Below, in pieces: positions 1,003 through 40,846 of a DNA stretch of 64,000 nt (its first letter is position 1; each line of letters opens with the position of its first letter). Origin of the DNA: Chryseobacterium limigenitum (lineage in GTDB: Bacteria; Bacteroidota; Bacteroidia; Flavobacteriales; Weeksellaceae). The DNA lies in NCBI RefSeq assembly GCF_900114875.1, contig NZ_FPKW01000010.1, positions 1 to 64,000 on the forward strand, given 5' to 3'. The translations under genes and the position numbers were made by a program. Under the pieces are notes generated by a model. The model worked only from the letters and a program-made list of their open reading frames with translations, searched no databases and was not told the DNA's origin.

Positions 1003-1830
1003 ATGAATAAAATCTCTATTCTAATTGCAAATTATAACAACGGAAAATATTTTCTGGAAGCTTATAATTCAATTATTGATCAGACCTATAAAAACTGGGA
1101 GGTTATAATTGTTGATGACGCGTCTACTGATGATTCAATAGAGATCATTAAAAATATTATTGGTAACGACAACCGTTTTAAGCTGTATGAAAATATATCA
1201 AACAAAGGTTGCGGTTATACAAAGAAAGAGTGCATGAAGTATGCAACAGGAGAAATATGTGCTTATTTAGATCCTGATGACGCACTTTACCCTATTACTT
1301 TAGAAGAATCGGCTGAAGAATATTTATTCAATAATAAAATTGTCGCCACTTATTCTAAAATGATGCTGTGTGATGAAAATCTGAATCCTCAGAAAACATT
1401 TAGCGCCACAAAAAGAATTTTCAATGACAGATACTTTTTTAACTGTCCTATACAATTTGCTCATTTTTTCACTTTCAAAAGAGAAGTATATTTTAAAACT
1501 CAAGGAATCGATCCTGAATTAAAAAGTGCAGTAGACCAAGATCTGTATTTGAAAATCCTTGAACTTGGAGAAGTAGCTTTTATTAATGAAAACCTATACA
1601 AATATAGGCTTCACGCTGATGGTATTTCTCAAAACAACTCAAAACAAGGCGCAAAAGATTCGTTTGCAAAAGTCATTCACAAAGCCATGGAACGAAGAGG
1701 AATCAAAAGAATCAACGGCAAAAATGTTCCGGATCAATTTACCAACGCAGACGAGATCTATAAACTTTTAGAATACCAGACCGCACCATTATTCAGAATA
1801 AGAAATAAATTTAATATCGCATTCATGTAG
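1003..1830 (+). CDS. Family 2 glycosyltransferase
   Basis: 275 aa, about the usual length for a single-domain GT-A enzyme. The N-terminus has the nucleotide-sugar binding beta strand ILIANYN (6-12), DDAS at 38-41 and the metal-binding DPDD at 90-93, all typical of GT2. A possible acidic catalytic region is AVDQDLYL near residue 178. No membrane segment or signal peptide is visible, so it should act at the cytoplasmic face, transferring a sugar to a surface glycan or lipid carrier. Substrate cannot be told. It stands alone, flanked by long AT-rich spacers rather than in a polysaccharide cluster, which is unusual for such enzymes and may mark a small acquired island. Confidence 0.85.
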   Translation: MNKISILIANYNNGKYFLEAYNSIIDQTYKNWEVIIVDDASTDDSIEIIKNIIGNDNRFKLYENISNKGCGYTKKECMKYATGEICAYLDPDDALYPITLEESAEEYLFNNKIVATYSKMMLCDENLNPQKTFSATKRIFNDRYFFNCPIQFAHFFTFKREVYFKTQGIDPELKSAVDQDLYLKILELGEVAFINENLYKYRLHADGISQNNSKQGAKDSFAKVIHKAMERRGIKRINGKNVPDQFTNADEIYKLLEYQTAPLFRIRNKFNIAFM

Positions 1831-1922
1831 ATTCTAAAAACCAATGAAAATATTTGTTCCCAAATAAGTATTGACTGTATTATTTATTCCTAATTTCTAT
1901 AATTCCCTTACTAATATTCATC

Positions 1923-1969
1923 AAAAAAGGTCTCCCTTGCGGGAGACCGTAAAAACACAAATGATGAAA
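1923..1969 (-). terminator. Hairpin module with conserved 19-bp flank, copy 2
   Basis: Strong stem GGTCTCCC / GGGAGACC with loop TTGC (1929-1948). On the minus strand it is followed by TTTTTT, and on the upstream side it carries the same 19 bp as the module near 407-425. It lies between the 3' ends of the glycosyltransferase (+) and the lipoprotein gene (-), so it may end the latter, but 240 bp separate it from that stop codon. The interval 1970-2204 is AT-rich and otherwise featureless. Confidence 0.55.
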
Positions 1970-2204
1970 AAAATCTATCCGGAAATGAAAACCCGAATAG
2001 AATATCGTAAAAGTAATTCACATTACTTTATTGTCCTTTTTAAATTATAAACTGTTACAAATTTATAATAATAAAGCATTAGTTAAAAATCCTAATTTAC
2101 TATCTATCAGTAAAACAAATGAATAATAATTACAATTAGAATACTTTTTAAATAAAAAATTTCTAGACTGATATTTTACCATTGCAAATATAAACTAATT
2201 TTTA

Positions 2205-2654
2205 TTATTCCTCCCATGCAATAGGAATATAAACAGTAACATATCCATCTGCATCCAAATACGCATCGGAAACCACTCCTACAACTGAGCCATAACCAAC
2301 CCAGCCACCTTGTCCCTGCATCGCCGTAAAGGTGTAGGTTCCGGCAGGAATTCCATCATAATATTTAGGTAAAGCCTGAAATCCACCACTGGCATACGTA
2401 TCGTAAGACTCTCCTGTATTATTATTTGTTGCAATAAAACTTCCTACATCATAATTTCCGGAAAGAATTTTAGTTCCTGTACTGGAAAGCAATCCGTAAC
2501 GAATATGATATGCCTGTGTTTTGGAGGTTTCCTTTGAAGTTTTATTATTCAAATTTGCTTGGGAATCAATCATAACATCATCATTTGGCGAACAGCCTGT
2601 AAAGATTATCGCTAATCCCGCAAAAGCTAAAATCTTAACTATTGAGTTTTTCAT
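2205..2654 (-). CDS. Small secreted lipoprotein of unknown function
   Basis: 149 aa with a type II signal peptide: basic MKNS, a hydrophobic core and the lipobox FTGC (Cys at about residue 21). After a Ser/Thr/Asn-rich linker comes an 80-residue region rich in Gly, Tyr and Thr (YDTYASGGF, TYTFTAMQGQGG) with alternating hydrophobic residues, suggesting a small beta-sandwich. The residues just after the Cys (SPNDD) are acidic, similar to the surface-export signal described for Bacteroidetes lipoproteins, so surface exposure is plausible. I do not recognise the family. A -7 box, TATTTTTG, lies just upstream (2682-2675). Confidence 0.7.
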   Translation of the reverse strand: MKNSIVKILAFAGLAIIFTGCSPNDDVMIDSQANLNNKTSKETSKTQAYHIRYGLLSSTGTKILSGNYDVGSFIATNNNTGESYDTYASGGFQALPKYYDGIPAGTYTFTAMQGQGGWVGYGSVVGVVSDAYLDADGYVTVYIPIAWEE

Positions 2655-2674
2655 ATTAATATAATTTGGTCATT

Positions 2675-2702
2675 CAAAAATATGAATTTTATATTAATTC
2701 AA
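2675..2702 (-). promoter_or_regulatory. Putative promoter of the lipoprotein gene
   Basis: Read on the minus strand: TTG at 2702-2700, 17 nt, then TATTTTTG at 2682-2675, about 20 nt before the ATG at 2654. It fits the TTG / TAnnTTTG pattern with a slightly short spacer. Confidence 0.45.
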
Positions 2703-2963
2703 TGAAAATCAACAGTTAACATTAGTTTATATTAAATTTTAACAAAAATAAATTCTCATACACAAAGACGTAGAAAAATGAGATAATAAAGCAATTTCAT
2801 TTAAAATTAAATAAACATTAACCTTATTTCGCAATCAACAAAGGGTGTTTTAATATATTTTTAGAACATTTAACATTGGTTAACTTAAGGTTGGCTTCAT
2901 AATTGAAAATATTATCATAGTTAAGGTCAATTCGACTAAAACAACCTTATTAAAATTTGAGTT

Positions 2964-3506
2964 ATGAAAAATATAGTGTTAACAGGGCTTTTGTCAGTTT
3001 TTTTATTGACAGCCTGTAAGAAAGACGACCAATTAGCTGAAAAATCTCTTGAACAACAGAAAATCGAATTTCAGGCAAAACAGTTGGATATAGAGAAACA
3101 AAAATTAGCAATTGAGAAAGAGAAAATGGCTTATGAAGCTCAGAAAAAAGCTGATAGTATCGTTGAAGTTCAAAAAGCTAAAACAGTGGCAGCTAATAAT
3201 TCAAAACCACAGGTAATAAGAGAAACAAAAACCATTTACAGAGAATCAAGCTCTAGCTCTAACAATGGAACATATGCAGATAACGGAAACAGTTCTACAG
3301 GAACCACTGCAACCAAGAAAAAAGGAATGAGTAAAGCTGCAAAAGGTACCATAATCGGTACTGTAGGTGGTGCCGCTGCAGGTGCGATCATTGCTAAGAA
3401 AAATAGAGGTCTTGGTGCCGTGATTGGTGGTGTAGTTGGTGGTGCAACAGGATATACAATCGGTAGAGCCGGTGACAGAAAAGACGGTAGAGTTCAACCG
3501 AAATAA
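2964..3506 (+). CDS. Lipoprotein with coiled coil and glycine-zipper domain
   Basis: 180 aa. A lipoprotein signal peptide ends at LLTAC (Cys 18). Residues about 25-75 are a charged coiled coil rich in Glu, Lys and Gln with heptad character (EQQKIEFQAKQLDIEKQKL). A Ser/Asn/Thr-rich linker follows. Residues about 120-170 are a glycine-zipper (YMGG-like): GTIIGTVGGAAAGAIIA and GAVIGGVVGGATGYTIG form two Gly/Ala-spaced hydrophobic hairpins. Such proteins are usually tethered to the outer membrane from the periplasm. The gene stands alone and ends in a strong terminator. The precise role is unknown. Confidence 0.75.
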   Translation: MKNIVLTGLLSVFLLTACKKDDQLAEKSLEQQKIEFQAKQLDIEKQKLAIEKEKMAYEAQKKADSIVEVQKAKTVAANNSKPQVIRETKTIYRESSSSSNNGTYADNGNSSTGTTATKKKGMSKAAKGTIIGTVGGAAAGAIIAKKNRGLGAVIGGVVGGATGYTIGRAGDRKDGRVQPK

Positions 3507-37974: not shown

Positions 37975-38856
37975 ATGCAGAAAAATGGTTTAAGTTACAT
38001 CGATGTTGTATATAGAGTCCTGGAAAACTGGTATTTAAAGTTCGCAGAAATTACCCCAAAATTAATTGTAGGGATTCTGGTTTTTACCTTTTTTCTTATT
38101 ACAAGCAAATATTTAAGTCAGGGTTCTGTAAAAGTCTTCCATAAACTATTCCCGAAAAGCAAAAAAGAAAGCTCTTTAGTAACATTGATCGGAGTTTTCA
38201 GATTTCTGATCATGATCATGGGAAGTTTTATTGCTTTGGAAATTATGGGATTCAGTGGTTTCCTTTGGAAATTCATCGGAAGCTTGGGAGTTGCCGGGGT
38301 TATCGCCGGGGTTGCTTTGAAGGATCTTGTTTCGAGTATATTTTCAGGGATGCTTATCGGGATCGATAAAGCCTTTAAGATCGGAGATTATATCACAATA
38401 GGTGCTCATTCCGGGACGGTGCAGGAAATTGGTTTTTTAACCACCAAACTCATCACAGACGACGGAAAGAAAGCTTACATTCCCAATCAGGTAATTTTTA
38501 ATGCTCCTTTTTATAATATTACCGCTTCACCTCAGCGAAGGATTATTTTAAATTTTGAAATTCCGGGAGATGAAGATCTCAACAAAGCTCAACAAGGTAT
38601 TTTAGAAGTCATCAAGAGTCTGGAAAATGTTGATAAATTAGATACATTAGAAGTTATTTTCACAGATCTGAAACAAGGCGCATTCACGCTACAGGCGAAA
38701 TTCTGGATGAAGGTCGGGGCAAGTATGGTTCAATTAAAAAGCGAGGCTTTAATGAAGATCAAGCAACGTCTTGATGCAGATAATATTCAGTTGGTAACGC
38801 CCACAAGTATTAGCATTACGAATGGAGAAAGTCTTATCAATGAAAATCATGATTAA
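37975..38856 (+). CDS. MscS-family mechanosensitive channel
   Basis: 293 aa. Three hydrophobic segments (about 25-48, 65-85 and 92-115); the last is the pore-lining helix with FIGSLGVAGVIAGVALKDLVSSIFSGMLI in the MscS pattern (shown in parts: GSLGVAGVIAGVALKD). The cytoplasmic beta domain follows with FKIGDYITIGAHSGTVQEIGFLTT and an alpha/beta C-terminal part. It opens on membrane tension to release solutes in osmotic downshock. Its terminator, four bases downstream, has been split by a small mobile element. Confidence 0.92.
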   Translation: MQKNGLSYIDVVYRVLENWYLKFAEITPKLIVGILVFTFFLITSKYLSQGSVKVFHKLFPKSKKESSLVTLIGVFRFLIMIMGSFIALEIMGFSGFLWKFIGSLGVAGVIAGVALKDLVSSIFSGMLIGIDKAFKIGDYITIGAHSGTVQEIGFLTTKLITDDGKKAYIPNQVIFNAPFYNITASPQRRIILNFEIPGDEDLNKAQQGILEVIKSLENVDKLDTLEVIFTDLKQGAFTLQAKFWMKVGASMVQLKSEALMKIKQRLDADNIQLVTPTSISITNGESLINENHD

Positions 38857-38860
38857 TAAA

Positions 38861-39082
38861 AAAACCGCTTTGTGAAAGAGGGCACTGAAAAACTATCCAA
38901 AAATAAAAGGGCTTAAACTTTAAATCAGTTTAAGCCCTTCTCTTTGCTATATTTTCAAATTTAAAAGTTTTCAAACTCAATCAAGCGATTCTCTCAGAGC
39001 CTTTATTTCATTTTTTTTATCAAAATTTTGTCTCATTTTTTATAAGAGGACTTTTTCAGTGCCCTCTTGTGAAAGGCGGTTT
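38861..39082 (+). terminator. Terminator split by a MITE insertion
   Basis: The outer arms AAAACCGCTTT (38861-38871) and AAAGGCGGTTTT (39072-39083 region) would form one compact hairpin with a GTG loop and trailing T-run if the 189-bp element and one target copy were removed. The arms can still pair over the insertion, helped by the element's own inverted repeats. Confidence 0.75.
38878..39066. mobile_element. 189-bp MITE-like element with 15-bp TIRs and 8-bp target duplication
   Basis: Terminal inverted repeats GAGGGCACTGAAAAA (38878-38892 and, inverted, 39052-39066) are flanked on both sides by the direct repeat TTGTGAAA (38870-38877 and 39067-39074). The inside has no ORF but contains a hairpin, AAGGGCTTAAACT / AGTTTAAGCCCTT (38907-38938), followed on the minus strand by TTTTATTTTT, i.e. 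a terminator-like unit. The parent IS family is unsure: TIR and 8-bp duplication could fit ISL3- or IS1182-like elements. Confidence 0.85.
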
Positions 39083-39103
39083 TCTTTTATCTGTAAAGTG
39101 AAA

Positions 39104-39580
39104 TTATTTCAACTTTAAGCTATCTTTCTTAGGCATTGTAGCACAGGAATCATTTTCAATTTTAACTTCACCCATTTCGTACTTTCCATTTTTAGGAATA
39201 GAATCTTCTTCAACCACAACCATTCCTGTTGTTGCATAAGTAGTTTCTTTAGGTTTTGAGCATCCCGTTAAAAATAGAATTAAAGAAAATATAGCCATTG
39301 TAACTCTACTATTTTGAAAGTGTGATGGAATATATTTAAAAAATTGATTTTTTAACTGCTCAGATTTTTCAACTTCTTTAGTTAATTGATGACTGTAAAA
39401 TCTTCCGCAAACTTCTTCATCTTTCTTTTCATCAATAATTTGCAGGATTTCCTCCGGTTGTTTTTCTGTAAAATCAATCACACATTTATTGCAAACGGAA
39501 CAAAACCTCCCTTTTTCCTGAGAAGACATCGATTCCCAATTTTCTGAACACGGATTTGGAATGTGTAGATTTTTCATCAA
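39104..39580 (-). CDS. Cys-rich N-terminal protein with internal lipobox-like segment
   Basis: 158 aa. Residues 1-60 carry several Cys: IPNPCSENW, GRFCSVCNKCVIDF (CxxCxxC) and EEVCGRFY, a pattern I recall from many short Chryseobacterium proteins and which suggests a metal or Fe-S site. Residues about 93-107 are a hydrophobic segment ending FLTGC, like a lipoprotein signal placed in the middle. The tail is polar and acidic. The gene is convergent with mscS. Function unknown; a zinc-sensing or redox membrane protein is possible. Confidence 0.65.
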   Translation of the reverse strand: MMKNLHIPNPCSENWESMSSQEKGRFCSVCNKCVIDFTEKQPEEILQIIDEKKDEEVCGRFYSHQLTKEVEKSEQLKNQFFKYIPSHFQNSRVTMAIFSLILFLTGCSKPKETTYATTGMVVVEEDSIPKNGKYEMGEVKIENDSCATMPKKDSLKLK

Positions 39581-39603
39581 TTATTATTTAATTTTTAAAA
39601 AGA

Positions 39604-39632
39604 AAAAACCGTTCCAAAAATGAAACGGTTTT
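39604..39632 (-). terminator. Terminator of sucC
   Basis: Stem AAAACCGTTCC / GAAACGGTTTT with T-run on the minus strand, 24 bp beyond the sucC stop. Confidence 0.8.
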
Positions 39633-39655
39633 AATTTTATATAAAAATTTTAGTC

Positions 39656-40846
39656 TTAAGCTAAAACTTCTTTTACTTTGTTTGCAGCTTCTTCTAAAGT
39701 AATTGCAGAGTGTACTGGAAGACCTGACTCATCAATTAATTTTTTAGCTTCAACAGCGTTAGTTCCTTGTAATCTTACGATCAATGGAACCGGAAGGCTA
39801 CCCATTGCTCTGTAAGCATCAACAACACCTTGAGCAACTCTGTCACATCTTACGATACCTCCGAAGATGTTGATCAAGATTGCTTTTACGTTTGGATCTC
39901 TCAAGATGATTCCGAAAGCAGTCTGTACTCTCTGAGCATCAGCAGTACCTCCAACGTCCAAGAAATTAGCAGGGCTACCACCAGATAATTTGATGATATC
40001 CATAGTTGCCATTGCAAGACCAGCTCCGTTTACCATACAAGCAACGTTACCGTCTAGTTTTACGAAGTTAAGACCAGCTTCACCAGCTTCAACATCCATT
40101 GGATCTTCTTCTCTTGTATCTCTCAATGCTTCAAGATCTTTGTGACGGAACAATGCGTTACCATCTAAAGTTACTTTAGCATCTACAGCGATAATTTTGT
40201 TATCAGAAGTTTTCAACACAGGGTTGATCTCGAAAAGAGAAGCATCAATTCCTGTATAAGCATTGTAAAGAGATGCAATGAATTTTGTGAATTCTTTGAA
40301 TGCATTTCCTTCAAGACCTAAGTTGAAAGCAATTTTTCTAGCCTGGAAACCTTGAAGACCTAAAGCAGGATCAATGATTTCTTTGTGGATCAAATGAGGA
40401 GTTACTTCCGCAACGTGCTCAATATCCATACCACCTTCAGTAGAATATACGATTGTATTTTTACCTTCAGCTCTGTCTAAAAGAATAGAAACATAAAATT
40501 CTTTAGTTTCAGATTCTCCAGGATAATAAACATCTTCTGCAACCAAAACAGAGTGTACTTTTTTACCTTCAGCAGAAGTTTGTGGAGTTACCAACTGCAT
40601 TCCGATGATGTTTTGAGCGTTTTCTTTAAGCTTATCCATGTTTGGAGAGAACTTTACACCACCACCTTTACCACGACCACCTGCGTGAATTTGTGCTTTT
40701 ACAACCCAAGCCTGAGCTCCGGTTTCAGCAGTCAATTTTTCAGCAGCTGCTACAGCTTCTTCTACATTGTTCGCTACGAAACCACGTTGGATAGCAACTC
40801 CGTACTTTGATAAAATCTCTTTTGATTGATACTCGTGAAGATTCAT
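39656..40846 (-). CDS. sucC: Succinyl-CoA ligase (ADP-forming) subunit beta
   Basis: 396 aa. It couples succinyl-CoA cleavage to ATP formation in the TCA cycle together with SucD, which is not nearby. Motifs: N-terminal MNLHEYQSKEILSKYGV, ATP-grasp QIHAGGRGKGGGVK near residue 55, FEINPVL near 205, GLAMATMDIIKLSGGSPANFLDVGG (in parts) near 270-295 and INIFGGIVRCDRVA near 325. An exact consensus promoter lies upstream, and a 42-bp tandem repeat array begins about 115 bp before that promoter. Confidence 0.97.
   Translation of the reverse strand: MNLHEYQSKEILSKYGVAIQRGFVANNVEEAVAAAEKLTAETGAQAWVVKAQIHAGGRGKGGGVKFSPNMDKLKENAQNIIGMQLVTPQTSAEGKKVHSVLVAEDVYYPGESETKEFYVSILLDRAEGKNTIVYSTEGGMDIEHVAEVTPHLIHKEIIDPALGLQGFQARKIAFNLGLEGNAFKEFTKFIASLYNAYTGIDASLFEINPVLKTSDNKIIAVDAKVTLDGNALFRHKDLEALRDTREEDPMDVEAGEAGLNFVKLDGNVACMVNGAGLAMATMDIIKLSGGSPANFLDVGGTADAQRVQTAFGIILRDPNVKAILINIFGGIVRCDRVAQGVVDAYRAMGSLPVPLIVRLQGTNAVEAKKLIDESGLPVHSAITLEEAANKVKEVLA

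Follow-up and report, generated by a model that had tools for sequence, protein, structure and literature searches.

Within the 64-kb window (the whole stretch of Chryseobacterium limigenitum DNA that was analysed), an open reading frame on the forward strand at positions 37975–38856 encodes a mechanosensitive channel of the mscS type, as judged by matches to PF00924 (E 2.1e-20) and PF21082 (E 2.4e-5). The predicted terminator of this gene is interrupted by an element of 189 bp (38878–39066), which starts 21 bp behind the gene and has the ends of a group of IS1182 elements, as comparisons of its ends and of its relatives indicate. The left terminal inverted repeat of the element, GAGGGCACTGAAAAA (38878–38892, forward strand), is 15 bp long and has a perfect complement (15/15 bp) at the right end (39052–39066, reverse strand). 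The element is flanked by two exact 8-bp copies of TTGTGAAA, at 38870–38877 and 39067–39074 (forward strand in both cases), the left copy spanning the loop of the host terminator. The arms of that terminator lie on either side: the left arm, AAAACCGCTTT (38861–38871, forward strand), follows an A-run and is defined by the fold of the rejoined site and by an empty site described below, and the right arm, AAGGCGGTTTT (39073–39083, forward strand), runs into a T-rich tail. A convergent neighbour, an open reading frame of 158 amino acids with a TTG start taken from the list of open reading frames, occupies 39104–39580 on the reverse strand; a Pfam search with this sequence gave no match.

An earlier note on this DNA had described the element, its 15-bp inverted ends and its 8-bp duplication, and all three proved exact on direct reading. 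The note had also claimed that deletion of the element and one duplicate restores a compact terminator with a GTG loop. The rejoined site, AAAACCGCTTTGTGAAAGGCGGTTTTCTTTT, does fold into a stem of 11 pairs that is followed by a T-rich tail (MFE -13.7 kcal/mol), but the loop in this fold is 4 nt long rather than the GTG that was claimed. By sequence, the site reads as an intrinsic terminator, that is, a stem followed by a T-run. The second hairpin that the note had placed inside the element is likewise present (38905–38941); it looks like a terminator on the reverse strand (read from 38941 to 38905), where it has the T-rich tail ATTTTTGGAT, the tail on the forward strand being weaker. The fold predicted for the filled site brings the old arms into pairing once more, with the paired ends of the element holding them together, and it is plausible on this model that the kept arms and paired ends still terminate transcription.

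The 189-bp element is a MITE in the loop of the predicted terminator behind the mscS-type gene. It is shorter than about 600 bp and too short for a transposase gene, it has inverted ends and a duplication, and its empty site exists, although it is present in a single copy, rather than in many, in its own genome (G000). (Note that the 64-kb window holds four matches to the 15-bp end in total, against 2.5 expected by chance when three mismatches are allowed, and that those other than the two ends of the MITE all have three mismatches.) An Rfam search of positions 38000–40000 returned only four matches, all far below their gathering scores.

The empty site and copies of the MITE in other genomes

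The region of the mscS-type gene was matched in 147 of 148 genomes of the genus, and 30 loci of the genus, one of which (L184) is the window itself, were read for 160 nt behind the gene. In G058, the second-closest genome as judged by the mscS-type gene (89% identity), we found an empty site, TAATAAAAAAACCGCTTTGTGAAAGGCGGTTATC, that matches the rejoined sequence with one base of the tail different. Because the rejoined sequence exists in G058, the resemblance of the window site to an interrupted terminator is not a product of chance. The MITE was absent from all 29 of the other loci within the 160 nt behind the gene. In G123, which is the closest genome by the same gene (94%), no such terminator was found in the 160 nt read, and short hairpins stand at the equivalent place in, for example, G043, G081, G104 and G133.

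These loci bear directly on whether the MITE, instead of being a mobile insert, belongs permanently to the mscS terminator as an attenuator or a regulatory RNA of the host. Such a reading would accommodate both the single copy of the MITE in its own genome and the terminator-like hairpin inside it, yet it conflicts with the empty site in G058 and with the absence of the element from the 29 other loci. Closely similar copies occur elsewhere in other genera and, together with the empty site, already refute it; we give it virtually no credence. (A role of the MITE as a host regulatory RNA was ruled out by the empty site.)

The MITE is mobile, as the same element is found at different places. Full-length relatives are present in Flavobacterium sp. 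ZT3R18 (L083, 90.0% identity), in G463 (two copies, 84.7% each) and in G545 (78.4%), and two distant relatives, L068 and L127, are 66.5% and 65.0% identical to it by global alignment. L083, L288 and L290 occupy the loops of three different terminators and are each flanked by an 8-bp duplication, which in L083 has one mismatch. The MITE is nonetheless rare, since searches with it matched only 2 of 148 genomes in the genus (its own genome and a fragment in G132), 2 of 395 in the order and 3 of 296 in the family.

Two further occurrences differ in form. A copy of the MITE in G463 (L289, G463:C26:480087-480272) sits on the axis of a perfect palindrome, and its flanks share only CATG, not 8 bp. In G132 (C131), truncated and repeated pieces of the MITE (L031, L283) are interleaved with another interspersed repeat, GACAGGCTCAGGGTGACAG.

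Full-length IS1182-family elements with the same ends

Public genomes were scanned for the 15-base end, which gave at least 118 stretches, and viral contigs for the end motif, which gave 33 stretches and one element (L162) that entered the counts. Among the matches listed, paired ends 1687–1774 bp apart were found in Lysinibacillus, Bacillus, Flavobacterium, Massilibacteroides, a Mediterranea MAG and a Clostridia MAG. At least six full-length IS were recovered from the scan; L060, L100, L111, L133 and L138 are exact at both ends and L135 has one mismatch. Moreover, the complete genome G075, from the same genus as the window, contains 13 IS copies of 1742–1743 bp with both ends exact in every copy. 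The MITE and the end of the G075 IS align over 49 bp at 81.6% identity (E 9e-5), and their 15-bp ends are identical.

The transposases of L100, L060, L135 and L138 belong to the IS1182 family by NCBIfam NF033551 (336.6–376 bits, cut-off 270), and all four combine PF05598, PF01609 and PF13751, that is, a DDE transposase with a DUF772 region. Nine transposases of this group, from Bacteroidota and Bacillota, form one branch (support 100/100). Members of this clade are 57–85% identical to the L100 protein, whereas 12 of 14 other IS1182 proteins are 20–27% identical to it and the remaining two gave no match. Note that because the nine were chosen by their ends, or by close relationship to proteins so chosen, the clade cannot serve as independent evidence of targeting. 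This transposase was found, at E <= 1e-80, in 4 of 148 genomes of the genus (in G005 only a partial one), and IS1182 transposases occur in 14 of 247 genomes sampled from the phylum.

In the window's own genome we found a single IS1182 copy, L183 (G000:C13, about 1310–3160). Its transposase is intact (490 aa, with 83% identity to the L100 protein; NF033551 363.5 bits), and one end, GAGGTCACTGAAAAA, is recognisable; a search for the second end of L183 did not find it. L183 could have been the source of the MITE in the window, and trans-mobilisation of the MITE in its own genome is unproven because L183 has one recognisable end only. Beyond the other side of L183 lies a terminator-like sequence, GAGGCTGTCTCAAAAGTGAGGCGGCC, and its first arm is complementary to the flank of the recognisable end.

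Hairpins also occur within the IS itself. In G075 copies (L215, L217–L225), hairpins belonging to the IS lie close inside both ends, and the one before the gene has a T-run. Like the inner hairpin of the MITE, these could insulate, those of the IS insulating its transposase gene. In Psychrobacillus vulpis (L082, L094), GC-rich repeat clusters carry the same 15-bp end motif several times in about 1 kb.

Insertions are centred on the dyad of terminators

The scans yielded a list of 67 candidate end pairings, some of them overlapping or due to chance, from which the Psychrobacillus clusters were excluded as unresolvable arrays. A first set comprised 36 non-Psychrobacillus insertions among the matches listed that had an 8–9 bp duplication with at most one mismatch. 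In a curated second set, which again numbered 36, 33 pairings had been dropped (12 from arrays and 21 others that lacked an 8–9 bp duplication or were removed by size, several of them overlapping or due to chance) and L288 and L290 had been added by hand. The pairings dropped included L036 and L049, which have a duplication and were removed by size, and the G075 copies L274, L279 and L281, which are without one; L289, the flanks of which share only 4 bp, was also excluded. Since sites were collected by their match to the ends, elements with diverged ends were missed. Some of the 36 insertions may be false end pairs (L049, L053, L064 and L142 are suspects), and chance pairs of this kind are expected to weaken the signal, not to produce it.

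A hairpin score of at least 9 was found at 23 of the 36 duplication-flanked sites, which come from many genomes, compared with 1.43% of all positions and 2.64% of intergenic positions in a background of 13 x 20 kb (260 kb) from one genome, G075 (binomial p 8e-28 against intergenic positions; p-values are approximate because background centres overlap). Scores of at least 7 occurred at 27/36 sites, compared with 7.6% of all and 9.7% of intergenic positions, and scores of at least 5 at 31/36 sites, compared with 33% and 36%, so that the contrast shrinks at looser cut-offs; 13 of the 36 elements scored below 9. A score of at least 7 was combined with a T- or A-run of at least 6 in 8 at 23/36 sites. 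In 21 of the 23 strong hairpins the dyad fell within 1 nt of the centre of the duplication (binomial p 2e-7, with 5/13 expected over +-3 nt). When insertion centres of the curated set were compared with centres 8–70 nt away in the same DNA, they beat more than 99% of these at 23/36 sites and more than 95% at 26/36. Complementarity across the axis in this set exceeded that of shuffled right flanks at 4–12 nt (z 2.2–4.6) and not at 1–3 nt, where the loop lies.

With regard to gene context, a rough ORF caller placed 13 of 35 sites (L289 and three G075 copies without a duplication included) between convergent genes, 19 between tandem genes and one between divergent genes, and left two without assignment; for 124 background gaps the numbers were 20 convergent, 90 tandem and 14 divergent. 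Convergent gaps are thus enriched (Fisher p 0.007) yet make up a minority, 13 of the 33 assigned sites, and the sites lie mainly behind genes, not mainly between convergent ones. The earlier note had presented insertion between convergent genes as the setting in which such elements are tolerated, which describes the window site and agrees with the enrichment but fails as a general rule. The enrichment fits the account in PMC9208149, where IS1182 appears among the IS families over-represented between convergent genes.

Tolerance, as invoked in the earlier note, explains too little, and the centring of insertions on the dyad to within about 1 nt speaks for a choice of site by the transposase. 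A more explicit form of the same idea is that insertion is random and that selection keeps the least harmful events, behind genes in terminator regions. Divergent gaps are indeed nearly absent (1/33 sites compared with 14/124 in the background), as selection against promoter disruption would have it. This account, however, does not accommodate the 21 of 23 dyads within 1 nt of the axis, and centres displaced by 8–70 nt seldom score as high (fewer than 1% do at 23/36 sites); we regard it as very improbable. The insertion pattern is one of targeting, beyond mere tolerance. The note's principal proposal, that the MITE lies inside the mscS terminator loop, is borne out by the ends, the duplication and the empty site in G058. 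What it had suggested looking for was also found: beside the one copy in its own genome, relatives 78–90% identical in other genera, an empty site in a relative, full IS of the IS1182 family with the same ends, and a preference of copies for terminator loops.

Contributions of stem and tracts

The sites share more than a stem. An A-tract and a T-tract flank the axis at +-12–16 at 26/36 sites, compared with 2.57% of 516,880 background centres, and A content in the curated set reaches 72–89% at positions -12 to -16. The transposase might accordingly read a duplex pattern, an A-tract and a T-tract about 24 bp apart (bent DNA with dyad symmetry), that terminators carry, and not the hairpin. In keeping with this possibility, the two tracts together are about as frequent as a good stem core (at least 6/8 pairs, 27/36), the G075 copies L272, L273 and L277 have tracts and little stem, and all 13 G075 copies, those without a duplication included, have at least 4/8 A on the left and at least 4/8 T on the right at 14–21 nt from the junction. 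When the tracts are held fixed, however, stem pairing remains far in excess of background (MWU p 8e-12); among centres with both tracts, at least 6/8 stem pairs were present at 21/26 sites compared with 22% of the background. Pairing above background was seen, too, at the 10 sites that lack one or both tracts (p 1.5e-4). Because the tract-controlled comparison shows excess pairing, a contribution of the stem is favoured, and we consider it rather unlikely that the duplex pattern is what the transposase reads.

The 13 copies in G075 illustrate the range of sites. Ten have an 8–9 bp duplication, of which nine score at least 7 and six at least 9. Tracts are accompanied by weak AT-rich stems in L272 and L273 and by no stem in L277. 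The dyads of L270 and L278 are 2.5 and 1.5 nt off the centre of the duplication, and these two copies therefore fail the stricter +-1 nt test. L274, L279 and L281, without a duplication, retain A-rich and T-rich flanks, as if the flanks had been exchanged by recombination between copies. To check for empty sites, each flank was matched in 36/59 genomes and the loci of 11 relatives were fetched. The empty terminator of L280 is recognisable in 9 of 11 relatives (L318–L324, L326 and L327), with other hairpins in L325 and L328, and that of L275 in 4 of 11 (L330, L331, L336 and L338), with other hairpins in the rest.

A model for insertion into terminator loops

We think it very probable that the MITE was moved in trans by a transposase of this IS1182 subgroup, one that picks terminators by their dyad and inserts with an 8–9 bp stagger such that the loop is duplicated and the arms are kept. 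In such a scheme the DDE transposase would bind both 15-bp ends, which may belong to its own IS or to a MITE. It would pick intrinsic terminators by their dyad symmetry, that is, a stem-loop between an A-tract and a T-tract that each lie about 12–16 bp from the axis. The ends of the element would then be joined 8–9 nt apart across the symmetry axis of the terminator, and gap repair would duplicate the loop while both stem arms survived as flanks. Because the duplication is nearly constant in length (8–9 bp) whereas the best loops measure 3 to 12 nt, it appears that the enzyme determines the stagger and the target the axis. The choice of site would on this model be made by the transposase itself, which probably reads structure rather than tract spacing alone.

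Terminators are also pause sites, and insertion might in principle be coupled to transcription, the target being single-stranded DNA at the T-run, or an RNA polymerase that has halted there, instead of a DNA dyad. Coupling of this sort would be expected to yield asymmetric insertion near the T-run, but the insertions observed are on the axis, and they are found in tandem as well as in convergent contexts; we judge it very improbable.

We propose more tentatively, as a possibility for the IS1182 clade, that targeting by the transposase represents structure-guided, sequence-independent DDE integration at the dyad or extruded cruciform of an intrinsic terminator, with a fixed stagger of 8–9 nt centred on the axis and with the terminator rebuilding itself as the paired ends of the element reunite the two old arms. 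If this were true, the element would be directed to the only type of site where its entry does no harm to the host. The findings suggest that mobile DNA has evolved towards terminators as safe harbours and that insertions contribute natural variation to the terminators that follow bacterial genes. With its 13 copies, G075 offers a natural system for how a DDE transposase recognises DNA shape.

Comparison with known elements

Group IIC introns are attracted to terminator hairpins as well; they move by RNA retrohoming and insert beside the hairpin, not into its loop. Closer to the present group are IS1272 and TnSha1, IS1182-family elements of staphylococci, which are described as targeting hairpins, often terminators, in the absence of a sequence consensus (PMC5678879, PMC4923244). 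According to these descriptions, on which the comparison rests, IS1272 removes the stem-loop and leaves no duplication, whereas the group described here duplicates the loop (8–9 bp) and keeps the stem, so that neither hallmark of hairpin replacement, deletion of the stem-loop or lack of a duplication, was found. Of three pathways drawn in PMC5678879, 'pathway c' places the joining at the 5' ends of the loops, which would leave only the loop duplicated; it is presented there as no more than a possible outcome. The GAGGGCACTGAAAAA-ended group looks like this hypothetical pathway in nature. It gives hairpin-directed integration by IS1182-family elements a second and clean outcome, which the authors of the IS1272 work had only drawn as a possibility. 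In the open-licence literature searched, we found no IS1182-family element reported to insert into terminator loops with a duplication.

Insertion into palindromes is described for IS that target REP sequences, such as ISRm22, ISPsy8 and IS1397 (PMC1525189). For ISRm22, a 6-bp duplication and insertion 'just at the palindromy axis' are reported, and 3/9 of its copies are without perfect repeats, which may be compared with the 3/13 G075 copies without a duplication (PMC1525189). The REP-targeting IS, as described there, belong to other families and have one repeated sequence as their target, whereas the targets here are unrelated terminators that share symmetry and A- and T-tracts. Similarly short MITEs with an IS1182-family partner, ISMac2, are described from Methanosarcina acetivorans (160 and 169 bp; PMC3852290); they differ in having inverted repeats of 26 and 25 bp and direct repeats of, apparently, 4 and 0 bp, and the word 'terminator' does not occur in the main text of that paper.

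De novo end-finding on other IS1182 lineages gave mixed results and was used for L292 and L306 (G796) only. No target-site duplication was found for these two by end-finding, or by eye for the copies in G634. These lineages belong to IS1182 by NF033551, as the present group does, but their transposases are 22–27% identical to that of L100. In L292 and L306, and in L311, L313, L315 and L316 (G634), the ends (AGGCTGTCT...) abut A-runs, T-runs or both, and they look to occupy the position of the stem, as if replacing the terminator hairpin.
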